In this document: positions 41,354 to 61,831 of the stretch, piece after piece
Layout of the letters: the number at the start of each line of letters is the position of its first letter
Numbering within the stretch: the stretch's first letter is position 1
Assembly (NCBI RefSeq): GCF_000815105.2
Contig: NZ_CP010310.2
Coordinates: 3,906,001 to 3,970,000 of the forward strand
From: Pandoraea pulmonicola
GTDB lineage: Bacteria; Pseudomonadota; Gammaproteobacteria; Burkholderiales; Burkholderiaceae
Direction of reading: 5' to 3'
Length of the DNA stretch: 64,000 bases
Notes under the pieces: generated by a model
The model's input: the letters and a program-made list of their open reading frames with translations, nothing else
Database searches by the model: none
Told to the model about the DNA's origin: nothing
Translations under genes and position numbers: made by a program

Positions 41354-44300
41354 CTACTTGTCCTGCCGCAGCGCGAGTCGCTCCGCTTCGCTCAAACGCG
41401 ACCAAAGCGCCGAGTCGACCTTCTCGCCCAGACCCACAATCTGTACCGGGTTGGCACGACTGTAGCCGGCCGTCTCCGGTGACAGCGACGACAGGGGAGC
41501 GCTCGGCGCCTTCCTTCCAGCATCGACGCCGGCGGCAGGCTCGTTGCCCTGCCCGATCGTACGCACCGTGAAAATCGACGGCTGCCCGGCCCGTGCGGCG
41601 CCTCGCTCCCGCGCCACCGCCTCCTGCGCGGCATTTGCGGCTTGCGACGCACTCGCACTGGCATTGGTCAGCGCCGCCACGTTCACGCCAGCAATCACCG
41701 GCATGCCCGTCGCCTTGCCCTGCACCTGAATATTCGCTGCGTTGATGACTTGCAGCGCCGCCAGGTTCACGTTCCCCGACACGCGAATGCCCGCCTCTCC
41801 TGCGTCGATGGTGCCCAGAGGGGCCAGAAGATCGATGTCGCCGGGTTTCACTTCGGGAATCGGATTGAGCGTGGCAATACCGGCACCGGTGCCGGGTACC
41901 TGTGGCGACAGCCTGACGTTGCCCCACATGTCGTACTCCCGCTTGGGCGGCGTGTAGACGATGGTCGATTTCGAACCGCGACCCGCGTTGATGTCGCCTT
42001 CAGACGACCATCCCAGAATGTCGCCGCCGAAGGTCGTCATGATGCGGCTCTGGCCAAGCAGAATGCTGCCGCGCGCGAACATCTCGATATTGCCTCCACC
42101 CTGTGTCAACACGCCGGAATCCGCTGGGGGCGCCGCGCCTTCGATACCGAACACCTGTTGACCGCCCGGCGTGAGCAGTTGAATGTTGCCGCCGAAGTTG
42201 GTGCGAACGAAGCCGCTGCGCGGGGTGTAGACGAAAACACTGTCGGTCTGGTTCCACACCGCCCGATTGCCGCGGAACATGACGATATCGCCCGCGTGGG
42301 TCACCGGGTTGCCGTTCGCATCGCTGTCCGGCGCGAGTGCGGCGATGGCGTTGCGGCTGCGCAGGAAGCTCGCGTAGCGCGGGCTGGCCCGATCGTTGTA
42401 CTCCCGGCCGCCCGCCTTGAGTTCGGCGAAGTAGACGTTGCGTGCAAAGACTCGCTGCTGCTCCGCGGGCAACGCGAAATAGTAGGTGCGCGCCTCGTCC
42501 GTGTTACCGGCAAAACCGTAGGTCTGCGCGAGCCACGCCGCCAATTCGTCGTCATACACCTTCACGACCTTGCCCACCTGATCGGCCAGTGGCACGCCGG
42601 TGCGCGCGAGATTGGCCGGATCCAGATATGGCTTGACGAACCGAAGGTAGTCCAGCCCGTCGGCGCCGACGCCCGCCTGCATGGCGATGTTGGCACCAGG
42701 GCGAGTGTCGCCCGCCACTACCGGACCGAGACTGGTGACCCCGGCGCGATCTTCCATCAGGATGTTGCGTCCAGCGCTGACCTCAAGCATTCCTGGACCG
42801 GCCACGTTGAACGTACTGTAAAGAATGTCTCGTCCGGCGGAGACGACCGACACGTCGGACGCCCTGTTGTGAACGAACAGATTGCCGGTCTCGGTAAAAC
42901 CGAAGCCGCTGCTCCCCGCGCGCGGGACGCCCTCGAGCAGCAAGGAGCCGCTTCGCACGATGTCGCGTCCTGCGACCATTCGCACCGGTGAGCCTTCGTA
43001 CCAGGTGCGGCCCAGACGCGGCTCCTTCTCGAAGAAGGTACCGGTGCCCGTGAACTTCATGATGCGCCCGCTGTTCACGCCGACAAGATCGCCCGCTACC
43101 GCGTAGAAGAGCGCGGATGCCACACGTTGTGTGGACGTCGCGGAGACGGAGTCGGCACCGAAGGCGAAGATCGGGAAGAGGCTCTGGTCAGCCCGATTGC
43201 CATCGCCGGTCAGGTTGCTGACGTCCGGAAGACTCGCCGACGTGCCAACCGCCTGGACCCAGGCGGAATAGGCGGGGCGTTGCGGCGTTGCAATGGCACC
43301 CATCGCCGCCCCGGACCGGCTGACCGTGAAGCCACCGGCGTAGATCGAATCGGCGGCAAGGAACTGCAATTGCCCGCCATTGGCAGACGGCGCCAGTACA
43401 AGCGGCGTGGCCGGGTATTCGTCCGCCTGCGACGTCCCGGCCGCCTTGCCGTAAAACAGATTGCGACTCGCCGAGACCACGCGCAGGATCGACGGATATA
43501 CGACGGCCTCGTCGGTGATGGTGCCCACCGGGCTGGTGATCGGCGTAACGTTCCCGCCCGCCGAGAACATGTCGAGCGCCGTACGACCGGTCCACAACGT
43601 GAACCAGCTCGATCCGCCGCCCCCCATACCCGCCTTGTCGGCATTCGGCGAGACATAGGGAGACGCATACGGCTGCAAGACCCGGCCGGGGTCGGCGACG
43701 TCCTGCGTCACCTGATCCGACAGCGTGGAGAGGTTGAACGTCGAATCGCCCGGCACCAGCGTAAAGCCACCGCCCGGATAGGCGCGTGTCGAGCGGAAGG
43801 CGTCGAATGCGCGCGTGTCGCCCGGCGTCTGCTGCGCCGCCTGAGCGCCGTAGGCAAGATCGATCGTGCCGATCTGCGACGCCTTGATCTCGGTATGACC
43901 CCGCAAGTTGGTTACAACACCGTTACTGCGATTCAGCGGGTTGGTGCCAATCGGATTCACGACGCCCCCGACGCGCACATCGAGATCGCCGCCCCCGGTA
44001 AGCGTCATGCCGCCATCAGGCGCCACGCGGCCGGTGCTGCCCACCGCAAGCACCACCCCTTGCGGACGCGAATTCACGTTGACGTCGAACCGGCTGCCGA
44101 CGAGTCGCGTCAATTGCCCCGCATCGCCATCGACCTGCGCCGTGAGGTTGCCGCCACCGAGCGTGCCGAAGCCCGTGAAACCCAGCAAGCGGGTGGGGCC
44201 GCCACTCAGTTCGGCCGTGAAACTGCCGAAGTTAATCCACCACGCCGTGGGCTGGCCCTGCGTGCCGGTGGCCACCGCGCCACTGCCCTGACGCCACAGC

Positions 44301-47300
44301 CAGTTGCCCACTTCGCCGCTATCGTACCCACCGTCACCGACGAGCGGCCGCTGGTTGGTTGCGGGGGACGGCATGAGCTGCGAGCCTGTCAGATTGCCGC
44401 CGACGCGCAACAGCAGGTTGCCGCCCCGATCCGGATACCAGGCGCGATACAGACTGTCGGCCCCCCCGTTGACGAACGCTTCGTTGTTGCCGGCCGCCTC
44501 GTTCAACACCGTGCCCAGCGAGTTCTTCGCGCGCGGCTGGTTGTAAGGATCGCCGGCCCGCGTGGCGACCGACGACGTGCCTGCGGTGTAGACGCCAAAC
44601 AGCGAGTCCATGCGCATGTTGCCGCCGCTCAGCATTTCCAGATCGCCCGTGCCCGTGCGCAAAACGCTGAAGCGCGAGCTCGTCGGCGAGTAGCTGTACG
44701 TCGTGCCCGGCGTTGTGCACCACGTCGGATTGTCCTCGCAAAGCGTCGGCCAGCCCAGCCCGATGGTGTCCACGACATCCCCGGCATGGATCGCCGGATC
44801 GGCGAATTCGTCCGCGCCTTGCTTCGTCCACACGTAGCTGACCTTGAGCACGCAGTAGGACGGCGTGTCCGCGCAAAGTTCGCCGGGGGACTGATCGATG
44901 CCGATGCGGCGCAGCAGTTCTTCCGTGATCGGTTGGCCAGCCACAATTCCGTCGATGCCGAGATCGGCCGCCTCCTGCGACCACGTCAGCACCCCCTTGG
45001 GCGGCACGCCCCTGCCATACATGCCGTAGTGACTGTCAGCCAGTCGCAGATCACCGCGCACCGGGCGCGTCTGCACCACGCGGCTGTCCGCGGCGCCCGT
45101 GTCGGCGCCCGACACCAGCCGCATCGACCAGGACTGCGAGCCTTCCGGCAGCATCTGCGCCAGCGCCCACGCCTTACCCTGCTGCCCGCCGACTTCCGGG
45201 CGCAGCGCAATCGAATCGACACCCGCGGGCAATTGCACATTGGTACCCGATGGAATTACCGCCCCCGTGGCCAGCGCCTTCGCGCCGTCGAGCAAGACCA
45301 CATTGCGGACCAGCGTTCCCTCGCCAGAGTCAGGAATGCCGGGCAGCGGCACACCCTTGGGCCACACCATGGCGCGCACGCTCACGGGCAACGGCATGAC
45401 CGAGCCGGCGTCCAGACGAGCGTTCGCGGCAATCGTCAGCGGGGCGCGAAGCAGCGTGCCCGCCGCATACAACACGTTCCCGGCACTGTCGCGCACGGCC
45501 GCGGAGAGCACGGTGCCTGCCGGCAATGTGACCGGAGCGTCGAGCCTCACCGCGACCGGAATGCGCACGCCCGCGGTCATGACAACGCCCTTGATCGGCA
45601 GATCGTAGTTGAGGATCGAGCCTGCGGGGAAAGCCGTGCCATCCGCCAACGTGACGCCGCTGCCGGGCACGACGATGTCGTCCCCGGCGAAGTTCATGCC
45701 GGGCAGCAGCTTCCAGCCCGTGTCGTCCTTCGTGGGCGGCGGCGGCGTGAAGCCATCGTTGATGCTGCCGAAGATATCGAGGTTGCCGCCGGCTCGGATG
45801 GCGAGCATGCCCACTTCGCCGGAGCCGTAGACGTTGGTCTTGGCAAAGCGCGGATTGAGGCTCTCGTAGCGATAGCCAGACAGATCGAGATCGCCGCGCA
45901 CGACGATGTCGCCGTCGCTCGTCTTGCTGACGATGTCGACGCCGGGTCGTAGATGCAGCACGCCGAGATAACCGGGGTTGTTCAGACCTGCCAGTTTTGT
46001 CCCCGGCAACGCGCCGTTCGCACGCGCGTGCTTGATGAAGTCCGTGCTCTCGTCGTGCTTCGCCGTCAGATAGGCCTGATCGACCACCTGATACGGGCGA
46101 CCGCCAGCCGCAAGTTCCAGCGTCGGCTTGCCGTTCGCGTCGAGTACGACATTGCCCCCGGCATCTCTGAGAACGGCGTAGGGCGCGTCGTCATAGCGCT
46201 GCATGGCGTTCAGTGCGATGGACCTGGCGCCGCGAATCGTCAGACCGCTGCGCGCGTCGATGGCGATGTCACCGTACGTCGCCGCGTCCGCATCGTCCAT
46301 ACGCCCCTGACTGCCCACGCGCGGCGCATTCAGCGTGAGGGTGCCACGCGCCACGCCATCGCTCTGTCCCGGTGCCGTGCCGACCGTGGCGCCCGTGCCG
46401 TGACGCAGATCGATCTGTGCGCCGCCGCCCATCGTCAGGATGCCGTCGCCAGAACTGAGTTCGACCACGGCGCGGTTCGGACTGTCGATGATCTTGCCGT
46501 AGCTGTCCACGCGCAGCGCAGTGCCGTGCGCGTCGAGCACCGCCGTATCGGCGAGCGTCAGCCCCTGCTTGCCTGCCAGGCGAATCGTGCCCACGCGCTC
46601 GCCGCTGGCGTCGATCGCGCCGGCAACCGTCAGGCGGCCGTTGTCGACCGAGACGTTCACTTCGCCCGCCTTGAGTTCGTTGCCGATGACCAGATCCCCA
46701 CGCTTGAACTGGAAGCTGCGGCCGCCGAACACGCCGCCCTCGTTGAGCCGCGTGTTGAGCCCCGCGAACAGCGCGTCGGCCCTGCCCACGCCAAGTGATT
46801 GCGCACGCACTTCCACACTGCCCGCCTTGAACGGCACGAGCGTGCCGGCGGCGTCGTAGTATCCGTCGCTCTTTCCAAAAACGCGGCCTTGCAAATCCAC
46901 CTGGCCCGCTCCCGCGTCGAGGGCCACGGCCTTGAGCGTGCCCGCACTGCTGTTGTGCGCCGAGATATCGATCGTCGATGCGCGCGACTGCGTGATGTTG
47001 CCGCGTCGGCTCTCGAGCACGACGTCGCCACCCCAACTGAATTTGTCGACGTCGACGAAGGTGCGCGTGCGCCCTGCCAGATCGAGCTGTGCGCCGTCGG
47101 CCAGCGTCAGGTCCTTGTCGGCAATCAACGTGAGCTTGCCGCTGGGCAATACCACAGCGGTCGCCACACGCAGGCTGTCGCCATGCAGTGTAAGGTCGGC
47201 GCCAAGCGCGTCGATGTCGCGCGAACGGTCGACGGACGGCGCGCCCGCAGGGGCCGCAACGGTCACGGCGCCACCCGCGACGATCCGGTTCGATGAGCCG

Positions 47301-50300
47301 GCCGCGCCTGTCATCAACGGCGTGGTGAGCGTCAGACTGCCGCCGTTGTACTGATAACCGCTCAGGGGGTCGTAAGCCCCCTGCGACTGGTACACCGACA
47401 GGCTGCCCTTCTGGTTGGCGGAAATGCGATCGCTCGCAATGAGATTCACGTTGGCGAAGCCAAGCGCCAGGCGATCGTACGATTTGACGCTGCTCGGCTG
47501 CGAAAACGGCGCAAATCCGAATTCGAAGCGCTCCGTGGCCAGATTCAATGTGCCGGCGCCCGTGCCAGCGCCGTTTGCGATCACCGTACCCGGGGCGCTT
47601 TGCGTCCCGCCCCAGATCAGGTTGGCCGTGCGGATCGTGGCAACGGTGGCGGCATTGCCCTGACCGTAGATCGCCGGTGTCGTGAGCACCAGACGGTCCA
47701 GCGAGGACTTTCCGGTGGCAGCGTCGTAGGTATCGAGCGTCACGTCGCCGTAGAAGTTGACGCTGTTCGCCGCGCTCAGCGTCAGTGTCTCCAGCGCGGG
47801 GGCGCCAGTCGATGTATCGCCGCGCAGCAGTCGTTCCAGTACCGCCTGATTCATCGCCAGACCGTCGGCACGGATACCGTTCGCCTGCGCATCGGCCAGT
47901 GCCTGTGTCGTCCCGATGTTGATGCCCCCGACGGCGAGCGTGAGGTTGCGTGTGCCGTAGCGTACGGTGTCATCGAGCACGAAATTTCCCGACGTCGCGG
48001 CAGCGAGCGTGCCTTCGGAATATAGCGTCGTCATACCGGTACAGTTGCCGGCAGGGCACCCGCCGATCTCCACGCCACCGCGCGCGACGCTCTTCGACGG
48101 CAGAATATTGATCAACCCGTTCGACGCCGCAAGCACGTAAGGTTTCGCCTGATAGATGAAGCCATCGTTCGCGTCGTAAGCCACTTTTCCGCGACGCAGC
48201 GTGTTGATGCCGGCGCCGCGCTCCACGCGGATCAGGCCGCCCTCCGTCGGATTACCGCCATCGTCGTCGGCAACGAGGAACACCTCGGGTGCCGAGAGGG
48301 TAGCGCCGCTGCGCAAGTGGATCCGTTCGGCAACGGCGTCGCCGAATGTGAGGTAGTTGCCGCCCTGCCCGTACGTCGTTGACGACATGCCGCCGAGGAC
48401 CATGCGCGCCGCACCGATGTTGTTCAGGCTGTCGGCGCGTAGTGTCCCCCCCCTGAATCCGGGTGTCACACCGGCATCCGGCCCCACGACTTCCAGCATG
48501 GATCGGTTCTCGTTGCGCCGCACGACGACGGACAGCGTGCCTCCATAGCCACCCGGCGCAACGTCGAAGCGCCCCATGCCGTCGAATCGGAACGCATCGA
48601 TGCCCGCGCCGGTTTGCAGTTCGAGCTGCAAGGTCTTGGCGTCGGCGGGCAACATCGGGCGAGGCACACCCCGCCGCGCGGCGTCCGCCGTCGCGAACTG
48701 CGTGTAGCCGGTTTCGTTGTACTGGGAATAGGTCCGGAGCACGTTCGCCGGCGTCAGAATGATCTGGCTGGCGAGGCTGTCGCGCGTGCCGGTGCCCGCG
48801 ACCGACAGCGTACCGGTGGCCGACCACGAACCGTTGCGCATGGCTTGAGCCGCCGCCCCGGCACCCTGCCCGGCGCGTCCGTTGATCTCGATGCGGAATG
48901 CGCCGGGCAGCAGCGCATACGTGGCAGGCATCAGCGTGTAGGTACCTGCGGGCAAGCCGGGCACGCCCGCGCCAATGGTGATCTGACGGCCGATGGCCGG
49001 CTCGGCAGCGCCGCCGCCGGCCGAGGGCGCATAGGCACTCTGTCCCCCCGGGACGATGGCATACACTGGATTGGTCTTGATATCCGGCAACGTGAATCCG
49101 CCGTTCGGGCCGACCTGCATCAGCGCAGACAGCCGCGCGTCGGTGGAACCGCCGCGTCCCGAGATAAAGCCCGCCCCGGTGAGTTCCCCGCCGCCGGAGA
49201 GGTCGACCAACGCGTCCTTTTCGACCTTGACCGACTGCCCTGCCAGCACGATGCCCTGCACGATCACGCCGCGCGGGCTGGCTCCGCCAACCCCGGTGAA
49301 CGTCACGTCCTTGCCGTTGTAGCGCCAGCTCTGCCCGTCCGTCGTGCCGCCATAAGGCATGACGAGCCCCGCGCCGCTGACCGACGTCACGCTGCCCGGC
49401 AGCAAGCGCACCGAGACGGACGTGTCGTCGCCGTACCCGGTCACTCCCAGCTTGATCTGCCCAAGCGGCGCTCGAATCACGCCGTCCTGCACGACGTTGG
49501 CCGACATCATCGACAGCGAACCGAAGGCCGAATACGGCAGTTCCGGCAACGTGTCGGTCGAACGCGCGATCGTCAACGAACGCTTCGGGTCGTATGACGC
49601 GACGGCATTCGCCGTGGAGAAACCCGCCATGACGGCGGCGCCAGCACCCGTGCCGGGATATAGCTGCGCGGCGCGAAGCGTGACGTCGCCGGGCACCGTG
49701 AGCGAGGTGGCCGGCGCGCCGCCATTCCAACCGTCGACGGTCGCCATGAACCGCAAATCGCCGCGACTGGTGAGTTCCGCGTTCCGGGCGTTGAGCACCA
49801 CGATGCCGCGTACGTCGATGAGATTCGCATTCGCATCCACTGTCGCGAGAAGGGGGCGAGCCGGTTCGAGCGCCGGGCCGGGGACCAGATAGCCGTCGCG
49901 ACCGATCGGTTTCTGTCCAGCCAAGCGCAGGTACGACGAGGTGAGATGCAGGGCCGCCGGCGACGTGGCGCCGTTCTGCGTCGTGATGTCGCCGTAGAAC
50001 TGGAGATTCTGGCCGACCTTGAGCGACACGTCGCCAGTGACGTTCGTTTTCCCGAACAACGACAGATTGTCGAAGCCGCCCGCGTCCACCTGAGCGGCGG
50101 ACAGCCGGCCGTAGCCGTAGGTCAGTGCCGATGCGGCCTGCGTCGGTGTCAGGAAGCTGCGCAAGGGGCTGGCGCTTTGTGTCTGCTCGAGAATCAGTTC
50201 ACGCGCCGTCAGCACCTTCTGGGCAGCGCTCGCCTTCGCGTACAACGCATTGACCTGCGCGACGGACAAGGAGCCGCCCGCCGCCCCGGCACCGCCAGCG

Positions 50301-53300
50301 GCCGCCTTGAACGTCCCATCCAGATAGAGCCCGTTGTTCGACGCGATGGCGATGTTGCCGCCGTTCGTGGTGACCTGGCGCCTGCCCTGCCCATCGATAT
50401 TGAGTGCGGCTTGTGTTCCGGAGGCGTCGAACACGGCGCCGTTGCGCACCACCACGAACAGATTCGTGCCCGTTGCCGTGCCGCTCGCATGATCGATGTC
50501 GCCGCCGATGACGATGTTGCCGCCGCTGCGCACCGCGCCGTAGGGATTGCCGTGCACATCGAGCGCCGTGGCTGCCCGCGCCGCCACGTCGAGCACGGCG
50601 CGCTCGCCGATCCAGATCGAGCGGCCGTGCCCTTGCCCGTTCACGGTTTCGGCCACGATGCCGATGTCCTTCGTATCACCGAGTGCGATGGTCCCGCCCC
50701 ACGCGTTCAGGGTACCGTCGACAGTCATCTGGCCAATGCTGTTCAGCGTGATCGACTGGCCCGGGTCGACACTGACCACCGCGCCCTTGCCGATCGTCAG
50801 TTGCGACACGGCCATGTCGGAGGCCGTCGAGGCGAAGTTGCCCGTCTGAAGGGTGAGGCTCGCGCCCTTGCGCTGTGTGAGCACCGCATGCGCGGCGTCT
50901 TCCTGATACAACGGCGGCGTCGCCACGGTGAACTTGTTGCGCCACTCACCGCCGTCGACCAGGCTGCGGGTTTGGTCGGCGCGCCGGTACACGGGCATGG
51001 TGACGTCAACCGTTGCGCCATCGCTCACGGCAACGTTCGTCGCCCCCGTGACCCGATAGCTGGAGAATCCCTTGTTGAAGAAGTCGTGGCCCAACGCGAC
51101 CGTATCGGAAGCCGGCTCGGAGCCCGCCGCGTTCGGGGCGTCACCGATCACGACCTTGCGAGCCAACAGATCGAAGGTGCCGCCGCCCGAGAAGCCGTAA
51201 GCACGCACCGCGGCTTCCCGATCCAGCACGAGCGACGCATTGCCGCCCGAGGTCGCCAGCGTCACGTCGCCGCCACGTCCGCCCTGGAGCTTGCCATCGC
51301 TGCCGAGCAGCGCACCGGAGGACACGTCGATCAGGCTCCCGGCCGCCAGCGCGACATTGCCGCCTGTGCTGATGGCCACGCTGCCGCCATCGCGATACGG
51401 CACTCCCGTGAAGCGGTCCGGCTCCGTGACCAGATTGCTCCACAATCCGCTCGCGTCGAGCTTCATGCCATGCGCCACGATCACATTCCCCACCGGGGCC
51501 ACCGGGTTGACGATGGTGCCCACGAGCCCATTCTGGCTCATCTGACTGAGGATGCTGCCGATCTGAATCCGGCCGCCGTGCGCGGTCACATTGCCGTTCA
51601 CGGCAACGTCGTTGCCGTACAGCGTCACGAGTCCGCCCGGCGCCACCCGAAGGTCGCTGCCGAGTTCGATCCGGTCTTTGGCGGCAACGCGAATGGCGCC
51701 GAGACCGAATCCGTTGATCAGCGACGTGTCGAGCCACAGTTTGTCCCGACGATCCGCTGGCAACGCAGTGGTGAGATCGAGCTCCGCCGCGATTTGCGCC
51801 TGCGCATCGCGCAGGTCCACGCGGCTGAGCACGGCGCTCAGATTGTCGTACAGCAGGCCGCTGGTCTTGTCGTACATCGGCTGCACCTGGCCGACGATCA
51901 ACTGTGCGCGGCGCGCAGCCGCCGTCTGTGACTGGTGGTAGCCGTCGACATCCATTGCCGGAGCCTGCGTCTGTCGCGGCCCCTGATACGCGTCGCCCGC
52001 GATACTGCCTTCGAGCACGGCCCCCGCGGTGGAGATAATCAGCCGCCCGGCATCGCGCCCCACCGTGTAACCGTTCTCCAGTCGCGTCGACGGCGCGATG
52101 AACGGCGTGGCGTAGTACTGTGTGGCATTGGCGCCCCAGCGGGCGTGCGTGTCCTCGAACCCCCTGTAGACGCCCGTATAGATCAGATCACCCGGGGCCT
52201 TCGACACTTCGTAGAGACCGCCGTCAGCGCCCTTGAGCCAGGTCTGATGCAGATACCCCGTCTGCACGTTCAGCGTGCCGCCCGAGAGATTGATCGTCGA
52301 CCCCGGTTGCGTGACGACGTCCTTGCCGCTGAACGTGAGCGTGCCGCCCTGTGCCATCCACTCCCCGGCGGTGTGGCCTTGCGTGCCAAGATAGCCACCG
52401 ACTTCCAGCAGACCGCCTGCCGTGTACCAGCGATCGCTGTCGTAACCGTTCACGCCCTTGGCCACGAACACGAGCTTGCGGCGATCGATCCACACGTCGT
52501 TGCTGTTGAGCAGCTTGCTGCCCCGATTGCCCGGTGCGTCGCGCTGTTCGTTGCCCTGAACGTTCACCTTGACGTTGTTGCTCTCCATCGACACGTCGAC
52601 ACCGACCGCGCCGGAGACATCGAGTTGCGCACGATCCCGCACCAGACTACGCGTGGCCGCGTTCACGAGGATCTGCCCGCCGGTGGCCAGCGTCAGCGAA
52701 TCCGGCAGGAAATCGACGGTGCCGGAACTGGTCAGCTCGACACGCGATTGATCGCGGCGGTCGTTGACCGGCATGATGTTGTAGGTGCCGTCGATGGCCG
52801 GCGCAAGCATGGCGTTGCGCTGACTGTCGAGTGCCGTGCCGCCGCCTTCGATCACGATGGCGCTCGTCGCGCCCGGACCAAGCGCCACTTTGCCGCCCAC
52901 CCCATTGGCCACGAGGTGCAGCGTGCCGCGCGTATTGACGGATGTCGTGGCGATTGCCACGCCGTTTTGCTGAACCTCTCGACCAGCGAGCGAAACATCG
53001 CCCTCGCGCGCCATGATCAACCCGGTATTGCGCACCAGCCCTGCCGCGCTATTCGCCGCGAACTGCGGCGTGATTTCATTGCCCCGCGTGGTCGATGCCG
53101 GATTGCCGTCGGTGCCCACCCCGCGCTTGATGACGAAGCTGTCTCCGGCCGCCAGCGCAGTTTGGCCTCTGAGCGCGGCGATCTCCCCCGCGTTGTGCAC
53201 TTCCTGCCCGAGCAGCAGCACATAACCGCCGCCGTCGGTCGACGCCGCCGGTGCGCGCGTCGTGATCTGCGCCCCCGCCTGAACCAGCACCTTGCCCGCG

Positions 53301-54124
53301 GCATCCGTAAAGGTCGGAGTATTGGTACCAGTGCCGTAGATGCCGTTTTTCTGGAACTGGTCATTGGTAATATTGGCCGCTGCCGCCACGAGATTACGCG
53401 TGTCGACTTGACTGGACCCGGTAAATACAATGCCGTTCCGGTTGGCGATAAGCACGGTGCCGTCCGCCTTGATCTGGCCCTGAATCACACTCGGACGCGC
53501 TTGCGGATCGTTCACCCGGTTGAGCACGGCCCAGTCGCGCTGCTGGTCGAAGGCCACGGTGGTGTTCTTGCCGACGTTGAACGTCTCCCAGTTCAGAATC
53601 GCCTTGTCGGCGGTTTGCTGCACTGAGACGGTGGTCTTGCCCACGGAGGTCGTTTGCGTCGGCGCGCCGGCATTGATCCAACCCTGCGTCAGGCTGTTGG
53701 TGTCGACTTTGAGGCCGCCCGCCGTCAGACCATCGGGCACCGATGTGTCGTTCTGTGCAGCCTGACGCGCAGCCGTCTGCATCGACTGCTGTGCAGCGAT
53801 GGCCTGTGCTGTCGCCCCGAGATTCGCAATGGAACGCTGCAACTGAGCGTTTGCCTGACGCTGCTGCTCCGAAGGAGAGTTCAGCGCTGACAAGGGCATG
53901 CCATTGGGCAGGCGGCCAGTTTGCGCTGCGGTGTTCTGCGCGGCGCCCCGCGCCGCAAACCAACCAGCGCTGAACGCCTGCTGCGCGTGGGCATCGACGA
54001 ACAGACCGCCCGTCGCCAGCGCCACCGCCATGGCGCGCGCCATAGGCGCCGCGCGAAATACTCGTCTCACTTGATTAGGATGCCGTATTTTACGTGCTTC
54101 GCCCGTGCGCCCGCGTGTGCTCAT
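41354..54124 (-). CDS. Giant filamentous-haemagglutinin-like exoprotein (DUF3739 type)
   Basis: 4256 residues from ATG 54124, preceded by AGGA 6 nt upstream. The extended signal region has RRVFRAAPMARAMAVALATGG, ending VDAHAQQ. The two-partner-secretion domain (about 140-290) includes IANRNGIVFTGSSQVDTRNLVAAA, the NPNG-type motif. The long middle is glycine- and asparagine-rich beta-helix sequence. The C-terminal DUF3739 has GWSSEGDINAGRGSKST, then LNPIPEVKPGDIDLLAPLGTIDAGEAGIRVSGNVN. It would be exported by a TpsB pore and form a surface fibre. No TpsB is in the window. It is the last gene after STN, ECF sigma and FecR genes, implying sigma control. Function (adhesion or contact) is inference. 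Confidence 0.9.
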   Translation of the reverse strand: MSTRGRTGEARKIRHPNQVRRVFRAAPMARAMAVALATGGLFVDAHAQQAFSAGWFAARGAAQNTAAQTGRLPNGMPLSALNSPSEQQRQANAQLQRSIANLGATAQAIAAQQSMQTAARQAAQNDTSVPDGLTAGGLKVDTNSLTQGWINAGAPTQTTSVGKTTVSVQQTADKAILNWETFNVGKNTTVAFDQQRDWAVLNRVNDPQARPSVIQGQIKADGTVLIANRNGIVFTGSSQVDTRNLVAAAANITNDQFQKNGIYGTGTNTPTFTDAAGKVLVQAGAQITTRAPAASTDGGGYVLLLGQEVHNAGEIAALRGQTALAAGDSFVIKRGVGTDGNPASTTRGNEITPQFAANSAAGLVRNTGLIMAREGDVSLAGREVQQNGVAIATTSVNTRGTLHLVANGVGGKVALGPGATSAIVIEGGGTALDSQRNAMLAPAIDGTYNIMPVNDRRDQSRVELTSSGTVDFLPDSLTLATGGQILVNAATRSLVRDRAQLDVSGAVGVDVSMESNNVKVNVQGNEQRDAPGNRGSKLLNSNDVWIDRRKLVFVAKGVNGYDSDRWYTAGGLLEVGGYLGTQGHTAGEWMAQGGTLTFSGKDVVTQPGSTINLSGGTLNVQTGYLHQTWLKGADGGLYEVSKAPGDLIYTGVYRGFEDTHARWGANATQYYATPFIAPSTRLENGYTVGRDAGRLIISTAGAVLEGSIAGDAYQGPRQTQAPAMDVDGYHQSQTAAARRAQLIVGQVQPMYDKTSGLLYDNLSAVLSRVDLRDAQAQIAAELDLTTALPADRRDKLWLDTSLINGFGLGAIRVAAKDRIELGSDLRVAPGGLVTLYGNDVAVNGNVTAHGGRIQIGSILSQMSQNGLVGTIVNPVAPVGNVIVAHGMKLDASGLWSNLVTEPDRFTGVPYRDGGSVAISTGGNVALAAGSLIDVSSGALLGSDGKLQGGRGGDVTLATSGGNASLVLDREAAVRAYGFSGGGTFDLLARKVVIGDAPNAAGSEPASDTVALGHDFFNKGFSSYRVTGATNVAVSDGATVDVTMPVYRRADQTRSLVDGGEWRNKFTVATPPLYQEDAAHAVLTQRKGASLTLQTGNFASTASDMAVSQLTIGKGAVVSVDPGQSITLNSIGQMTVDGTLNAWGGTIALGDTKDIGIVAETVNGQGHGRSIWIGERAVLDVAARAATALDVHGNPYGAVRSGGNIVIGGDIDHASGTATGTNLFVVVRNGAVFDASGTQAALNIDGQGRRQVTTNGGNIAIASNNGLYLDGTFKAAAGGAGAAGGSLSVAQVNALYAKASAAQKVLTARELILEQTQSASPLRSFLTPTQAASALTYGYGRLSAAQVDAGGFDNLSLFGKTNVTGDVSLKVGQNLQFYGDITTQNGATSPAALHLTSSYLRLAGQKPIGRDGYLVPGPALEPARPLLATVDANANLIDVRGIVVLNARNAELTSRGDLRFMATVDGWNGGAPATSLTVPGDVTLRAAQLYPGTGAGAAVMAGFSTANAVASYDPKRSLTIARSTDTLPELPYSAFGSLSMMSANVVQDGVIRAPLGQIKLGVTGYGDDTSVSVRLLPGSVTSVSGAGLVMPYGGTTDGQSWRYNGKDVTFTGVGGASPRGVIVQGIVLAGQSVKVEKDALVDLSGGGELTGAGFISGRGGSTDARLSALMQVGPNGGFTLPDIKTNPVYAIVPGGQSAYAPSAGGGAAEPAIGRQITIGAGVPGLPAGTYTLMPATYALLPGAFRIEINGRAGQGAGAAAQAMRNGSWSATGTLSVAGTGTRDSLASQIILTPANVLRTYSQYNETGYTQFATADAARRGVPRPMLPADAKTLQLELQTGAGIDAFRFDGMGRFDVAPGGYGGTLSVVVRRNENRSMLEVVGPDAGVTPGFRGGTLRADSLNNIGAARMVLGGMSSTTYGQGGNYLTFGDAVAERIHLRSGATLSAPEVFLVADDDGGNPTEGGLIRVERGAGINTLRRGKVAYDANDGFIYQAKPYVLAASNGLINILPSKSVARGGVEIGGCPAGNCTGMTTLYSEGTLAAATSGNFVLDDTVRYGTRNLTLAVGGINIGTTQALADAQANGIRADGLAMNQAVLERLLRGDTSTGAPALETLTLSAANSVNFYGDVTLDTYDAATGKSSLDRLVLTTPAIYGQGNAATVATIRTANLIWGGTQSAPGTVIANGAGTGAGTLNLATERFEFGFAPFSQPSSVKSYDRLALGFANVNLIASDRISANQKGSLSVYQSQGAYDPLSGYQYNGGSLTLTTPLMTGAAGSSNRIVAGGAVTVAAPAGAPSVDRSRDIDALGADLTLHGDSLRVATAVVLPSGKLTLIADKDLTLADGAQLDLAGRTRTFVDVDKFSWGGDVVLESRRGNITQSRASTIDISAHNSSAGTLKAVALDAGAGQVDLQGRVFGKSDGYYDAAGTLVPFKAGSVEVRAQSLGVGRADALFAGLNTRLNEGGVFGGRSFQFKRGDLVIGNELKAGEVNVSVDNGRLTVAGAIDASGERVGTIRLAGKQGLTLADTAVLDAHGTALRVDSYGKIIDSPNRAVVELSSGDGILTMGGGAQIDLRHGTGATVGTAPGQSDGVARGTLTLNAPRVGSQGRMDDADAATYGDIAIDARSGLTIRGARSIALNAMQRYDDAPYAVLRDAGGNVVLDANGKPTLELAAGGRPYQVVDQAYLTAKHDESTDFIKHARANGALPGTKLAGLNNPGYLGVLHLRPGVDIVSKTSDGDIVVRGDLDLSGYRYESLNPRFAKTNVYGSGEVGMLAIRAGGNLDIFGSINDGFTPPPPTKDDTGWKLLPGMNFAGDDIVVPGSGVTLADGTAFPAGSILNYDLPIKGVVMTAGVRIPVAVRLDAPVTLPAGTVLSAAVRDSAGNVLYAAGTLLRAPLTIAANARLDAGSVMPLPVSVRAMVWPKGVPLPGIPDSGEGTLVRNVVLLDGAKALATGAVIPSGTNVQLPAGVDSIALRPEVGGQQGKAWALAQMLPEGSQSWSMRLVSGADTGAADSRVVQTRPVRGDLRLADSHYGMYGRGVPPKGVLTWSQEAADLGIDGIVAGQPITEELLRRIGIDQSPGELCADTPSYCVLKVSYVWTKQGADEFADPAIHAGDVVDTIGLGWPTLCEDNPTWCTTPGTTYSYSPTSSRFSVLRTGTGDLEMLSGGNMRMDSLFGVYTAGTSSVATRAGDPYNQPRAKNSLGTVLNEAAGNNEAFVNGGADSLYRAWYPDRGGNLLLRVGGNLTGSQLMPSPATNQRPLVGDGGYDSGEVGNWLWRQGSGAVATGTQGQPTAWWINFGSFTAELSGGPTRLLGFTGFGTLGGGNLTAQVDGDAGQLTRLVGSRFDVNVNSRPQGVVLAVGSTGRVAPDGGMTLTGGGDLDVRVGGVVNPIGTNPLNRSNGVVTNLRGHTEIKASQIGTIDLAYGAQAAQQTPGDTRAFDAFRSTRAYPGGGFTLVPGDSTFNLSTLSDQVTQDVADPGRVLQPYASPYVSPNADKAGMGGGGSSWFTLWTGRTALDMFSAGGNVTPITSPVGTITDEAVVYPSILRVVSASRNLFYGKAAGTSQADEYPATPLVLAPSANGGQLQFLAADSIYAGGFTVSRSGAAMGAIATPQRPAYSAWVQAVGTSASLPDVSNLTGDGNRADQSLFPIFAFGADSVSATSTQRVASALFYAVAGDLVGVNSGRIMKFTGTGTFFEKEPRLGRTWYEGSPVRMVAGRDIVRSGSLLLEGVPRAGSSGFGFTETGNLFVHNRASDVSVVSAGRDILYSTFNVAGPGMLEVSAGRNILMEDRAGVTSLGPVVAGDTRPGANIAMQAGVGADGLDYLRFVKPYLDPANLARTGVPLADQVGKVVKVYDDELAAWLAQTYGFAGNTDEARTYYFALPAEQQRVFARNVYFAELKAGGREYNDRASPRYASFLRSRNAIAALAPDSDANGNPVTHAGDIVMFRGNRAVWNQTDSVFVYTPRSGFVRTNFGGNIQLLTPGGQQVFGIEGAAPPADSGVLTQGGGNIEMFARGSILLGQSRIMTTFGGDILGWSSEGDINAGRGSKSTIVYTPPKREYDMWGNVRLSPQVPGTGAGIATLNPIPEVKPGDIDLLAPLGTIDAGEAGIRVSGNVNLAALQVINAANIQVQGKATGMPVIAGVNVAALTNASASASQAANAAQEAVARERGAARAGQPSIFTVRTIGQGNEPAAGVDAGRKAPSAPLSSLSPETAGYSRANPVQIVGLGEKVDSALWSRLSEAERLALRQDK

Positions 54125-54332
54125 CTCAAATCCTGCCGATAGACGGTTCTATAGCCACCCGGCTGCCCGTGCCGTGCAGGGCAACCCTGTTCATCGGGTC
54201 GCGCGTCGCAGTCGCGAGAACGCACCCTATGCCCAAGGACGAACGAGGAACCTCCCCACCCGCAGACTATTTCAGGGATTTTTTCGAACCGCGCGCCAAT
54301 GAGGCGGCGCAGGGGACGTCGTGAAACGGCTG
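54125..54332. other. Gap between FecR and exoprotein genes
   Basis: 208 nt without a gene. It contains an AT-rich core with T6/A6 near 54274-54285 in otherwise GC-rich sequence, possibly a sigma-factor-dependent promoter for the exoprotein. I could not match a consensus. Confidence 0.4.
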
Positions 54333-55334
54333 TCAGGAAAGCACGACCAGGCCACCCGGCAACGTGCGGGCGCTCAGATCGAACGTGCGCTGCAATTGCG
54401 CGAGGGCCATGTCCAGCAAGGTGATCTCGAAGCTTCCGCTCACCGGCTGGTTGCGCAGCGATGCGTTCATCAACACCACTCTCCCTCGGCGGTAGCGGTT
54501 GATCTCGTCGAGCACGTGCCCAAGCGGTGCTTCGCGGAAGATCAGCATGCCGCTGCGCCACGCGGACACATCGGCCACCGAAACGCGTTTCACGCGGCCA
54601 ACCGCGCCATCGTCGTAGATCGTCTGGTCCCCCGCGCGCAAGACGTGTCGCCCGGCCGGGTGAGCGACGTTGACAGTGCCCTCGATACAGGTCACGCAGA
54701 CATGGCTCGCCAGACGGCGCACTTCGAAGCGTCCCGCACTGGCTTCGCTACGCCCCGCACCGGCGAGGACCGCGAATGGCGCGGCACCGGCGCCGATGTC
54801 GACGGCGGTTTCACCGGTCAGCAGACGGATGCCGGTGGTCGAAGCGCCTGCCGTCTCCCGTTGGATGCTGGTCTCAGTATTGAGCGTGATGTCGACGCGC
54901 GAGGCCAGCGCAATCGTGCGCTGCTCGCCGGTGGCAGTGCGGTAATCGGCTCCCCACTCCGCTGGCGCGGGCCAAAGCCCCGCCGGTGGGTGCAACACCG
55001 CGACACCAGCGACCACCGCGGCGCTGGCGGCCGCACCGAGAAACGCCCGGCGGCCCATGTTGGGACCGCGCAGTGCGAGGACATGCTGCTGGGCCGCCTC
55101 GGGGTTCTCGCGCAGCACCTCGCGCGCGGCGGACTTGAGCAATGACCACTCCTGTTTGGCGTCGCTGAACGCCGCGTGATGCGCAGGGCTGGTGCGCAGC
55201 CAGCGCTTGAACGCATCGGCATCCCACGAGGTCACGTCGCCGGAACTGAGGCGGCGCAGCCAGGCCCACGCCTCACGCTCGATCGAGCCGGGCGAGTCTT
55301 GCAACGAGGTGCGACCGTCGTCGTGCGTCGTCAT
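54333..55334 (-). CDS. FecR-type anti-sigma factor
   Basis: 333 residues: DUF4880 cytoplasmic sigma-binding part at about 20-65 (WLRRLSSGDVTSWDADAFKRWL), a membrane span at about 96-116 after GRRAF, the FecR domain beginning YRTATGEQRTIALA (131), and a C-terminal secretin-like/DUF4974 region near 255-330 (LLDMALAQLQRTFDLS). In such systems FecR passes a periplasmic signal from an STN domain to the sigma factor. ATG 55334 has AGGAG 6 nt upstream. It lies 127 nt after the sigma gene. Confidence 0.92.
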   Translation of the reverse strand: MTTHDDGRTSLQDSPGSIEREAWAWLRRLSSGDVTSWDADAFKRWLRTSPAHHAAFSDAKQEWSLLKSAAREVLRENPEAAQQHVLALRGPNMGRRAFLGAAASAAVVAGVAVLHPPAGLWPAPAEWGADYRTATGEQRTIALASRVDITLNTETSIQRETAGASTTGIRLLTGETAVDIGAGAAPFAVLAGAGRSEASAGRFEVRRLASHVCVTCIEGTVNVAHPAGRHVLRAGDQTIYDDGAVGRVKRVSVADVSAWRSGMLIFREAPLGHVLDEINRYRRGRVVLMNASLRNQPVSGSFEITLLDMALAQLQRTFDLSARTLPGGLVVLS

Positions 55335-55461
55335 GCAACGCTCCTCTTGCGCATTCCGACCACGATGGAGCGGGTGTGCGCAAACGATGAACGGAGGGTG
55401 GAGAAAATGCGTGCCATATGGAAGGACGAATGTACCGCCGCGCGCCCGCAGACTTTTTTCT

Positions 55462-55968
55462 TCATCGGTCTTTCCGGGCGATCAGGGAGTCGTGTGCCCG
55501 TTTCAGATCGGATTCGACCGTGCGCAACGACACGCCGAGCCGCTTGGCCACTTCCTTTTGTTCGAGTCCGTCCCAGTGGACCATAAGCACGATCTGGCGA
55601 CGCCGCTTGGGCATACGGTCGATAGCCTCGCGCAGTGCCTCGATCCGGGAGCGTCCCTCCGCAATCCGCTCCGGACCAGGGGCCGGATCGGCCATGTCCA
55701 TGAGTTCTTCGATCTCGTCCAGCGGCAGCGAGCGGCCCTGACGGCGCTGAATGTCGACGGCAATATTGACCGCCATGCGCAGCAGATAGCCCGCCGGGCT
55801 GAGAATCTCGTTCTCTTCCTTGCGGCTATGCACGCGCAGCCAGGTGTCCTGGAGCGCATCGCCGGCGAGGTCGCCATTGCCGAGCAGTCGTGTGACCCGA
55901 GACTTGAGCGTGCTGTAGTGCTTGGTGAGATAGTCCACCAGCACCATCGGCGGCGTATCGTCGCTCAT
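55462..55968 (-). CDS. ECF sigma factor (FecI-like)
   Basis: 168 residues. Region 2 is at about 10-80 (GNGDLAGDALQDTWLRVHSR, then PAGYLLRMAVNIAVD). Region 4 is at about 105-160 (MPKRRRQIVLMVHWDGLEQKEVAKRLGVSLRTVESDLKRA). The ATG shares ATGA with the STN gene stop, so translation is coupled. It should direct RNA polymerase to the promoters of this locus, including the exoprotein gene. Confidence 0.93.
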   Translation of the reverse strand: MSDDTPPMVLVDYLTKHYSTLKSRVTRLLGNGDLAGDALQDTWLRVHSRKEENEILSPAGYLLRMAVNIAVDIQRRQGRSLPLDEIEELMDMADPAPGPERIAEGRSRIEALREAIDRMPKRRRQIVLMVHWDGLEQKEVAKRLGVSLRTVESDLKRAHDSLIARKDR

Positions 55969-56696
55969 GAACCGGCCCTGGGAATCGCGGGAGCGTCGCA
56001 CGTCATGCCGAACTCGGCATCGTGGGGCAGCAGCAGCATCGTCACAGGTTGAGGAATATCGCTGGGTGGCGCGGCGTCCATGCGCAGGTCGCGCAATGTC
56101 TCGAGTACCGCGATGTCGCGTTGCCCGTTGCCCGTCGAGCCGATCAGACGCGCGCGCTGTACGTGGCCGGTCTCGTCGAGTTGGAAACGCAGCAAGGCGC
56201 GGTAACGTCCGGGGGCGGTGAGTGGATGGCTGCACAACGCTTGCCAAACGCGCGTCTGCACCAGTCCGGGATAGCCGGTCAGCTTGCCCAGCCCGTTGCC
56301 GGACGGCGCGGCGGCCGTTTCATTTGCCGCCTTCAGGATGAACGCGCTGCTTTGCCCCATGTTGAATTTCTCGGCGGTCAGGCCCGTGCCTTCGAGCAAC
56401 TTGCGCAGGGCGGCCTCGGGCGAATACCGGCCGCGAACGGCCGTCGAGGTTTGTCCCGCAAGAATTTCGCTGCGATAGAGCGCCGGTAGACGTGCAGCCG
56501 TGCCGAAACGCCGAAGCGCATCCGTCAACGGCAATGCGGGGATGTCAAAGTCGATGCGCGGATCGCTCTCCGGCGCGGCCGGAACCACCGCGCTCGCGGG
56601 GCCCGCAAGCACAGGCTGCATCACGGGGATCGAGACAAGCGCGATCGAGCATCCCGCCAGCACACGCAGACTCATCGATGCCGGGTTGCCTGCCAT
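55965..56696 (-). CDS. Secreted STN + TonB_C domain protein
   Basis: 243 residues. The signal peptide (MSLRVLAGCSIALVSIPVM, cleavage near GPASA) is followed by an STN domain at about 48-118 (IDFDIPALPLTDALRRFGTAARLPALYRSEILAG, then PEAALRKLLEGTGLTA). A TonB C-terminal-type domain follows at about 140-225 (YPGLVQTRVWQAL, then RYRALLRFQLDETGHVQRARLIGSTGNGQRD). In FecIR systems STN is normally the N-terminal part of a TonB-dependent receptor; here it is a free periplasmic protein. It starts the operon, with no strong ribosome site; ATG 56675 is an alternative. Confidence 0.85.
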   Translation of the reverse strand: MAGNPASMSLRVLAGCSIALVSIPVMQPVLAGPASAVVPAAPESDPRIDFDIPALPLTDALRRFGTAARLPALYRSEILAGQTSTAVRGRYSPEAALRKLLEGTGLTAEKFNMGQSSAFILKAANETAAAPSGNGLGKLTGYPGLVQTRVWQALCSHPLTAPGRYRALLRFQLDETGHVQRARLIGSTGNGQRDIAVLETLRDLRMDAAPPSDIPQPVTMLLLPHDAEFGMTCDAPAIPRAGS

Positions 56697-56941
56697 CGTC
56701 TATCGCACGCTCGGTCGAACGCCAGGAGACCGTGGGAAATCCAAACCGACCTCTTGGCAAATGCGAGTGAGGCTACCTGCCTTACATGAAATTTCAGTGA
56801 CAAACGGAAGGCTGCGAGGGTGTGGCAACGTCTGCCTACGCCAGACTTCGGTGGATCTTGGCGGCTTGCTCACTTTGACTGCCGTCACGGGGAATCAATC
56901 TCGATGGTGACAAAAGCGTGGCAATGCTGCCCGCCAGCAAC
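56697..56941. other. Upstream region of the STN operon
   Basis: About 245 nt with no gene, between the tRNA-side terminator and the STN ATG. It must hold the STN operon promoter; no -35/-10 could be assigned with confidence. Confidence 0.5.
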
Positions 56942-56969
56942 AAAAAAGGGGTTAGCCGAAGCTAACCCC
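56942..56969 (-). terminator. Intrinsic terminator (original tRNA-Pro terminator)
   Basis: GGGGTTAGC-CGAA-GCTAACCCC (56948-56969) with AAAAAA at 56942-56947 is a 9-bp stem with a T-run on the minus strand. It lies 10 nt beyond the tRNA 3'-end duplicate, so it looks like the terminator of the tRNA before insertion of the small island. Confidence 0.8.
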
Positions 56970-56979
56970 TTGATCCTGC

Positions 56980-57016
56980 TGGTCGGAGCGATAGGATTCG
57001 AACCTACGATCCTCTG
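56980..57016 (-). repeat. tRNA-Pro 3'-end duplicate (att-like)
   Basis: 36 of 37 bases are identical to 58222-58258, the 3' end of the intact tRNA-Pro including CCA, T arm and anticodon-stem side. After this it diverges. A duplicate of a tRNA 3' end at one edge of foreign DNA is the hallmark of integrase-mediated insertion. Confidence 0.85.
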
Positions 57017-57084
57017 GACTTAAATCATCGTTTCGGGCGAGGCTGGCGCGTCGCCGGGAGCTCGCATACCCGATGCCGACGAGT

Positions 57085-58172: not shown

Positions 58173-58209
58173 AAAAGATTAGGGACAATAGATGCTGCCT
58201 GTCCCAATC
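58173..58209 (-). terminator. Terminator-like hairpin downstream of intact tRNA-Pro
   Basis: On the minus strand GATTGGGACA pairs with TGTCCCTAATC (one bulged base) and is followed by TTTT. It lies 13 nt past the tRNA 3' end, inside the insertion, and would replace the original terminator. Confidence 0.55.
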
Positions 58210-58221
58210 CCTTGAAGCTAG

Positions 58222-58298
58222 TGGTCGGAGCGATAGGATTCGAACCTACGACCCTCTGATCCCAAATCAGATGCGCTACCAGGCTGCGCTACGCTCCG
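58222..58298 (-). tRNA. tRNA-Pro (anticodon UGG)
   Basis: 77 nt. The acceptor stem CGGAGCG pairs with CGCTCCG; the D arm has AGCGCAGCCTGGTAGCGC; the anticodon loop TTTGGGA holds TGG; the T arm has GGTTCGAATCC. CCA is encoded. The 3' end is duplicated at 56980-57016, marking this as an integration site. Only this copy is intact. Confidence 0.97.
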
Positions 58299-59094: not shown

Positions 59095-59166
59095 CTACCG
59101 TTCACGGAATCGACATTGATGCTTTTTAAAGTACGTCGCAACGCGACCGTCACAAAAAGGGCCTTT

Positions 59167-59994
59167 ATGCGCGACCTGCCGAACCCCACCATGCCGCTTT
59201 CTTCGTTGACCCCTACGTCGCGGAGGCGTCTTCCTCGCCCTGAAACGCCTGTCAAACCGAATCTGGCTGTGGCGTGGGCACACGACGAAAGCGAGCTTCG
59301 AGAAGCGCAACGCCTGAGATATCAGGTCTTCGCCGAAGAAATGGGCGCGTCGGTCAAGGGTCCGGCAGGCCTCGACGTCGACGAATACGACCAGTATTGC
59401 GACCACCTGCTCGTGCGCGATCAGGACTCGCTCAAGGTCGTCGGCACCTATCGCGTATTGCCCCCGGCACAGGCCAAGCGCCTCGGTCGTCTGTACTCCG
59501 AAGGGGAGTTCGACCTCTCGCGTCTCGACCATCTGCGCCCGAAGTTGCTCGAAACCGGCCGCTCGTGCGTGCACCCGGATTACCGCAACGGCGCGGTCAT
59601 CATGGCCCTCTGGAGCGGTCTGGCCGAGTACATGCTACGCCACGGCCTCGAGACGATGCTCGGCTGCGCCAGCGTGCCGATGGCCGACGGCGGACACTAC
59701 GCCGCGAGCCTCTATCGTAAGCTTCAGGACACGGCCATGGCACCCACCGAGTACCATGCCGTGCCCCGCATCGCCCTGCCCGTCGACGAGTTGCAATCGA
59801 CCCTCGACGTCGAACCGCCCACCCTGGTCAAGGGCTATCTGCGCCTGGGCGCCCGCATCTGCGGCGCACCGGCCTGGGACCCCGACTTCAATACCGCCGA
59901 CTTCCTCACGCTGTTCCGCCTGTCCGACATGAATCCGCGTTACGCGCGTCACTTCCTCGGACCGGAACTCGTCAACAAACTCAAACAAGCCTGA
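59167..59994 (+). CDS. GNAT-fold acyltransferase, OlsB-like
   Basis: 275 residues, typical of the OlsB family that transfers a 3-hydroxyacyl group from ACP to ornithine, the first step of ornithine-lipid synthesis. Key phrases: EAQRLRYQVFAEEMGA, YDQYCDHLLVRD, VVGTYRVLPP, LETGRSCVHPDYRNGAVIMALWSGLAEYML, and GCASVPMADGGHYAASLY. ATG 59167 has AAGGG 5 nt upstream; the frame also opens at ATG 59119. A PHO-box-like site upstream fits known use of ornithine lipids in phosphate starvation. OlsA is not in the window. Confidence 0.85.
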   Translation: MRDLPNPTMPLSSLTPTSRRRLPRPETPVKPNLAVAWAHDESELREAQRLRYQVFAEEMGASVKGPAGLDVDEYDQYCDHLLVRDQDSLKVVGTYRVLPPAQAKRLGRLYSEGEFDLSRLDHLRPKLLETGRSCVHPDYRNGAVIMALWSGLAEYMLRHGLETMLGCASVPMADGGHYAASLYRKLQDTAMAPTEYHAVPRIALPVDELQSTLDVEPPTLVKGYLRLGARICGAPAWDPDFNTADFLTLFRLSDMNPRYARHFLGPELVNKLKQA

Positions 59995-61740: not shown

Positions 61741-61758
61741 ATGACACGTCGTTGACAA
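61741..61758 (-). promoter_or_regulatory. PHO-box-like sequence facing ppx
   Basis: On the minus strand TTGTCAACGACGTGTCAT contains two perfect TGTCA units 11 nt apart, as in the PhoB site, with 11 of 18 bases matching overall. About 100 nt upstream of the ppx ATG. Confidence 0.6.
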
Positions 61759-61782: not shown

Positions 61783-61831
61783 AATCCGGATGAAGAATTC
61801 ACGCCAATCCCATGTCTTTCGCACGTTCCAT

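Follow-up and report, generated by a model that had tools for sequence, protein, structure and literature searches.

The 64,000-nt stretch analysed here (the window; positions 3906001-3970000 of contig NZ_CP010310.2, part of a complete 5.87-Mb Pandoraea genome) carries on its minus strand a cell-surface-signalling locus in which the gene of a sensor with an STN domain is followed by genes for an extracytoplasmic function (ECF) sigma factor, a FecR-type anti-sigma factor and a giant exoprotein. The locus is real and well conserved, and it is of the PUMA3 kind, from which it departs slightly in the layout of its promoters. PUMA3 is the system formed in Pseudomonas aeruginosa by VreA, VreI and VreR (PA0674-0676) together with PdtA and PdtB (PA0690/PA0692). 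It is likely, in our judgement, that the locus is a phosphate-armed module of this type, with a sigma factor that reads two local promoters and an exoprotein that is exported by a TpsB protein encoded in trans. The initial annotation had regarded the locus as its best candidate for an undescribed system, a claim that cannot be kept, since PUMA3 already has this architecture and PMC2729926 reports multi-copy homologues followed by tpsA. Among the titles listed by literature searches, none names the architecture in Pandoraea.

The gene set and its coordinates were confirmed. The sensor gene (55965-56696, on the minus strand like all features of the locus) encodes a VreA-like protein of 243 amino acids with a probable signal peptide, an STN domain (Pfam residues 73-110, structured part ca. 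48-123; 36.8 bits, cut-off 28.4) and a TonB/TolA-like C-terminal domain at residues ca. 142-222. The latter had been proposed from the letters of the sequence; Pfam alone did not show it, and it is supported by the TIGR01352 (tonB_Cterm) match of 33.1 versus a cut-off of 27.1. The AlphaFold model of the sensor (mean pLDDT 82, pTM 0.49) has two folded lobes. Foldseek matched the N lobe to the signalling domains of PupB and FpvA (E ca. 1e-6) and the C lobe, weakly, to the C-terminal domains of TolA and TonB (E ca. 0.01-0.06). The closest named protein is from Pandoraea apista (72% identity). The FecI-type sigma gene (55462-55968, 168 amino acids, identified by domain matches) starts inside the ATGA that ends the sensor gene, an overlap that had been noticed before and is common to six of six orthologous loci, the window locus included. 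The anti-sigma factor gene (54333-55334; DUF4880 and FecR domains) precedes the exoprotein gene (41354-54124), a single open frame for a TpsA protein of 4256 amino acids. Its two-partner secretion (TPS) domain (residues 155-393, 52946-53662) scores 89.9 bits in Pfam against a cut-off of 33.5 and is also matched by TIGR01901, while DUF3739 covers residues 4033-4143 (41696-42028); no Pfam family besides these two was found in the exoprotein at E up to 0.001. Purifying selection acts on all four genes (dN/dS 0.04-0.27 in three ortholog pairs).

The PUMA3 assignment rests on comparison of this architecture with published descriptions, P. aeruginosa not being among the best 80 of 349 loci annotated below. 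According to PMC2729926, VreA combines a signalling domain at its N-terminus with a TolA/TonB-like domain at its C-terminus and lacks a barrel, and the PUMA3 regulon includes a TPS system; PMC5422565 lists PdtAB under both phosphate and PUMA3. Similar to the P. aeruginosa system, the Pandoraea locus has a barrel-less STN protein with a TolA/TonB-like C-terminal domain, the gene order A-I-R, a pho box before the A gene and a TpsA target, so that the sensor domains, the gene order, the association of tpsA with tpsB-exbBD-tonB-porin and, at the level of sequence, the pho box are all found. Unlike in P. aeruginosa, the exoprotein gene comes directly after fecR, and fecR has a sigma-type promoter motif of its own. 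Two further differences are particulars of the species rather than defining traits: the pho box upstream of the -35 element of the tpsA promoter was not found here, and no hxc type II secretion genes occur among the flanking genes scanned.

The order STN-sigma-FecR-exoprotein was found five times in this genome, without internal stops in any copy, and because of this recurrence the locus is more than a chance arrangement. All five occurrences of DUF3739 in the genome have a gene for a short STN protein 14-16 kb upstream of this domain. Four of the five sensors pass the STN cut-off (copy S4 reaches 22.1 versus 28.4). In pairwise comparison of the copies, the sensors are 34-41% identical and the exoproteins 40-58% in their best-matching segments. 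The giant TPS exoprotein could suggest a locus for contact-dependent inhibition (CDI) that carries a dedicated regulator, and FhaB/FhaC and CdiA/CdiB do share with the present system the TPS domain, the large exoprotein and a TpsB with POTRA and ShlB domains. However, the Pfam matches of the exoprotein include no toxin domain, the next gene downstream (41069-40482) encodes a TetR regulator, and the C-terminal region bearing DUF3739 is well conserved among the five paralogues, not variable. A CDI locus, which would have a variable toxic C-terminus and an adjacent immunity gene, was rejected on these grounds as very improbable; the DUF3739 class and the associated ExbB-ExbD-TonB-porin cassette also set the system apart from FhaB/FhaC and CdiA/CdiB.

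Phosphate starvation acting through PhoB is the probable input of the sensor operon, and it had been missed in the initial annotation. A direct repeat resembling a pho box (TTGTCAC-TGAA-ATTTCAT, 56786-56803) lies 107 nt before the sensor start, and the -10-like hexamer TAGCCT (56770-56775) follows 10 nt past it. Box, spacing and hexamer are kept in six Pandoraea loci with flanking sequences that can hardly be aligned, the six representing about three independent lineages (G015, G016 and G022 are close, as are G010 and G014). The window and 12 other stretches of the genome were scanned for pho boxes with at least 11 of 18 matching positions and TAnnnT exactly 10 nt behind, with pstS as positive control. 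Of the nine sites that resulted, one precedes pstS, one ppx and four a sensor gene (those of the window and of copies S1, S3 and S4 out of the five, with the same box/-10 spacing throughout); three lie elsewhere. This conserved arrangement of a predicted pho box and -10 element before the sensor gene, found also at pstS and ppx, is a new observation. In 18 loci from named genomes, which are not all independent (five are from Janthinobacterium, and that of P. horticolens may overlap the six-locus set), 12 of 19 sensor genes have a box plus TAnnnT site with a score of at least 10 among the three best of the locus, and for 10 of the 19 it is the single best. The phosphate genes phoR, phoB, phoU and pstBACS lie immediately beyond the right-hand end of the window. 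As a separate observation, ppx (60102-61637, minus strand) and ppk (61790-63904, plus strand) adjoin the locus, and the pho box of ppx at 61758 (minus strand) has the same TAnnnT layout.

The gaps before fecR and before the exoprotein gene each contain a putative sigma-dependent promoter, GTCTGCGGG-N14-TTCGTCC (55424-55453) and GTCTGCGGG-N15-TTCGTCC (54237-54267), respectively. A motif scan of the 5.87 Mb found exactly these two sites for GTCTGCGGG-N14/15-TTCGTCC, and none for the reversed control. The two promoter-like copies are thus unique to this locus in the genome, which is likewise new, and we read them as candidate locus-specific promoters. The motif core TCTGCGG...TTCGTCC is kept in the six Pandoraea loci. 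A similar motif, TTGCGGR-N13..18-CGTC, occurs in both gaps of S1 and S4 and in one gap of S3.

A probable exporter for the exoprotein was found by searching the whole genome, as the initial annotation had proposed. That neither a TonB-dependent receptor nor a TpsB gene adjoins the locus was borne out for the flanking genes scanned with Pfam (the genome's two receptor-sized STN proteins sit more than 1 Mb away), but a TpsB of PUMA3 type is encoded 2.7 Mb from the locus, at 1221350-1223014 of the contig, so the genome does not lack one. This protein has POTRA and ShlB domains, and its operon runs in the order TpsB, ExbB (with LamG and DUF2341), ExbD, TonB, Porin_5, an unknown open reading frame and YbjN. 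The order is that given in PMC7035377 for pdtB-exbB2-exbD2-tonB4-PA0696-PA0697-PA0698 of P. aeruginosa, where PA0696 corresponds to the porin and PA0698 to YbjN; that TpsB is encoded in trans, and that the genome has five TpsA proteins of this class, is a difference from that species. By inferred pairing, the TpsB probably serves all five TpsA copies.

Comparison of 32 Pandoraea genomes ties the sensor to this operon. A full sensor occurs in 17 of them, and the same 17 have the TonB of the TpsB operon (among the matches listed) and DUF3739, of which one further genome holds a fragment. In 15 of the 17, a sensor gene follows the TpsB-operon TonB at a distance of ca. 4 kb, and two of the 15 read through as TpsB-ExbB-ExbD-TonB-porin-orf-YbjN-STN-sigma-FecR-TpsA. 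The present genome has no sensor match behind this TonB; in the other exception, G017, the contig ends ca. 4 kb behind TonB, so that absence of the sensor is not shown there. A receptor and a TpsB gene adjacent to the locus in related genomes had been named as signs of a truncated standard system: in relatives a TpsB gene does adjoin another copy of the module, a receptor does not. Two observations concern TpsB itself. The N-terminal sequence VDVNEYxVRGN is found in 21 of 23 aligned TpsB proteins, with slight differences in that of this genome and that of L144; it is not claimed as a TonB box, as by our reading it sits where the first POTRA strand is expected. Upstream of tpsB (L031:9050-9350), a box TTGTCAC-GAGA-AATTCAT in reverse orientation is kept in four of four genomes.

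In named genomes, 349 relatives of the exoprotein were found, and the best 80 of the 349 loci (60 from Pseudomonas, 20 from other genera) were annotated with our own profiles. Three of the 20 were dropped for having less than 4 kb of upstream sequence. STN, sigma and FecR genes lie directly upstream of the exoprotein gene in 15 of the 17 eligible loci (Janthinobacterium 5, Pandoraea 2, Variovorax 2, Cupriavidus 2, Achromobacter 2, Pigmentiphaga 1, Bordetella 1), the exceptions being one Achromobacter locus and one Gemmatimonadetes metagenome-assembled genome. Among the Pseudomonas loci of the same 80, 53 of 60 have at least 4 kb upstream, and two of these 53 have the three genes there; a TpsB scoring over 200 bits is within the stretch at 21 of the 60. 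In P. helleri (L099), STN-sigma-FecR-TpsA-TpsB-ExbB-ExbD-TonB-porin form one run. PMC2729926 (Llamas et al. 2009) names homologues in P. fluorescens, P. entomophila, Burkholderia vietnamiensis, R. palustris and Janthinobacterium, and describes for the last two a cluster repeated four times, three copies being followed by tpsA and the fourth by tpsB, exbBD and a PA0696 homologue. The present genome resembles these in its repetition, and differs in that it has five copies, all with tpsA, and a tpsB operon without an adjoining sensor copy.

Since the sigma factor, FecR and the STN domain are all of Fec type, the locus might still be regarded as a truncated FecI-FecR-FecA iron system whose receptor is gone and whose haemagglutinin neighbour is there by chance. 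Unlike FecA, the sensor has a TonB-type C-terminal domain in place of a β-barrel receptor, and the input would be phosphate, not iron. With no receptor among the flanking genes scanned, five copies that share the same type of exoprotein target, pho boxes before the sensor genes and the same arrangement in seven non-Pseudomonas genera (Pandoraea included), we rejected a truncated iron system, which has hardly any likelihood. This agrees with the initial annotation in that the locus is a cell-surface-signalling switch, the target of which is very probably the surface protein.

For the PUMA3-type module, the sequence suggests the following course. Phosphate starvation would activate PhoB, which with sigma-70 would transcribe the sensor and sigma genes, and probably fecR, from the pho-box promoter. 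By analogy with the FecI/FecR and PUMA3 families (the current STN/FecR model is given in PMC11637429), FecR in the inner membrane would at first hold the sigma factor back; its release would require a second signal, from the periplasm, which the STN domain of the barrel-less sensor would pass on. The free sigma factor would then read the two nearly identical promoters, the one before fecR providing feedback and the other driving the exoprotein gene. Export would proceed through the distant TpsB, encoded with its own ExbB-ExbD-TonB and porin and probably common to the five TpsA copies. For P. aeruginosa, PMC4971064 reports control of vreAIR and pdtA by PhoB.

Several observations weigh against this course. 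The pho-box consensus was not derived from Pandoraea; the strongest of the box matches before pstS (15 of 18) is without TAnnnT, the fifth sensor gene (S2) has a box but GACATT in place of TAnnnT, and 7 of the 19 sensor genes in named loci are without a good site. No pho box was found at the exoprotein promoter (best match 10 of 18; ca. 2.4 expected by chance), whereas pdtA of P. aeruginosa needs one according to PMC4971064. As to the sigma factor, copy S2 has no TTGCGGR-N13..18-CGTC motif in either gap, and the named loci have a sigma motif in only 1 and 2 of 19 gaps, with just one of the three matches outside Pandoraea; the pattern used there is narrow (spacer 13-17) and misses the P. horticolens locus, which has a longer spacer. 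On these counts the motif was rejected as a general rule. The genome contains seven ShlB matches, so six remain besides the TpsB chosen, and the choice rests on operon type. Among 200 Burkholderiales genomes, 20 of the 23 that bear DUF3739 are without a full-length sensor at E up to 1e-10, the three with one being this genome, G189 and G169. Finally, PMC4971064 and PMC7035377 report that deletion of the sensor gene in P. aeruginosa left the expression of the regulon at low phosphate and virulence in zebrafish embryos unchanged, which counts against a strong sensing role. Because of this result and the 20 of 23 genomes, the sensor is an addition to the exoprotein class and not a requirement.

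The vreA deletion also favours a view in which the sensor is a leftover without signalling role and a sigma/anti-sigma pair driven by PhoB controls the exoprotein. We consider this unlikely. The C-terminal half of the sensor is a TolA/TonB-type domain and not a remnant of a plug or barrel, no copy in the genome has an internal stop, and the gene is retained in 17 of 32 Pandoraea genomes and 15 of the 17 eligible loci outside Pseudomonas, with a dN/dS of 0.09-0.27.

The C-terminal domain gives a hint of what a functional sensor may do. In a profile built from 42 sensor C-terminal domains, the TpsB-operon TonB of this genome scores 45.1 bits, and the other four TonB_C proteins score 16.6, 14.2, 10.8 and 0.1. 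Of 20 TpsB-operon TonB proteins from named loci, 18 score 25-34 with this profile and two (16.3 and 16.1) fall just under the best generic protein. In the 32 Pandoraea genomes, for which every candidate was scored, the sole match of the C-terminal half alone is the TpsB-operon TonB (among the matches listed). In the 200 Burkholderiales genomes, with at most 13 candidates scored per genome, it matches at E up to 1e-10 in 14 genomes, all within the 23 with DUF3739, leaving nine of the 23 without a match. ExbB, ExbD, TonB and Porin_5 are present in 13 of 13 matched regions outside this genome; in 12 of them DUF3739 lies 3-5 kb from TonB on the same contig, and in the thirteenth (G189) TpsB precedes the cassette and STN-sigma-FecR-TpsA follow it. 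Because of these 13 regions, the Ton cassette can be said to lie often beside this exoprotein class. Twelve Burkholderiales genomes without a full sensor match (L166-L173, L175-L178) have ExbB-ExbD-TonB-Porin_5 after a gene for a DUF3739 exoprotein; a TpsB profile built from one sequence gave no match in the stretches covered.

Weaker than the sensor-profile scores are the reverse profile and a tree. With a profile of TpsB-operon TonB proteins, 12 of 17 sensors score above the best other TonB_C protein of the genome (20.0 bits), one equals it and four, including copy S2, are below. In the tree (57 rows, 99 columns), which does not resolve the branching between sensors and TonB proteins, 19 sensor domains form one group (94/78) among DUF3739-associated TonBs; the branches of the four generic TonB/TolA rows are very long, and one of these rows joins the TonBs of two Burkholderiales genomes. 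By profile score, then, there is a hint that the sensor C-terminal domain has its closest counterpart in the TonB of DUF3739-associated ExbB-ExbD-TonB cassettes, and not among the genome's other TonB/TolA proteins. This would be new: the portions of the PUMA3 literature consulted contain no statement on TonB-domain kinship of VreA-type sensors, and PMC7035377 describes VreA as a protein of unknown function and exbB2-exbD2-tonB4 as uncharacterised. A possible, if doubtful, extension is that the sensor and the cassette TonB dock at one and the same outer-membrane partner, either TpsB or the porin encoded with it, and that the sensor signals by way of FecR whether the common export machinery is unoccupied. 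Any one of the five sigma factors would then become active only if export of its own exoprotein is possible; the system would be armed by phosphate starvation and triggered by the occupancy of the export machinery. The suggestion in the initial annotation that the STN protein could sense secretion gains indirect support from this domain, but the vreA deletion without effect speaks against a strong role of this kind.

The remaining flanking genes encode, by Pfam, TetR, GGDEF-EAL, LysR, permease, ParDE and acyltransferase proteins besides ppx and ppk, with a tRNA-Pro in between. A cyclic-di-GMP protein with MHYT-GGDEF-EAL domains (37715-39823, plus strand) is encoded close to where the exoprotein gene ends. 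A direct repeat of 64 nt (84%; 56964-57027 and 58206-58269) covers the 3′ end of tRNA-Pro (58222-58298) and encloses 1.2 kb in which a ParD/ParE pair is encoded (57638-57085, minus strand); the arrangement looks like a small insertion at the tRNA. A GNAT protein (59116-59994, plus strand) weakly resembles autoinducer synthases and FeeM, an N-acyl amino acid synthase.

The tie to PUMA3 settles whether the system is undescribed, and the possible TonB kinship offers a testable role for the VreA-type protein, which showed no phenotype in P. aeruginosa tests. If the docking idea is right, a sensor equipped with the same kind of docking domain as the export motor would let the cell couple the costly synthesis of a giant surface protein to export capacity. 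The kinship also bears on why an uncharacterised ExbB-ExbD-TonB set travels with this class of two-partner secretion, and export-coupled sensing could be tested well in a genome that naturally combines five modules with a single matching exporter.

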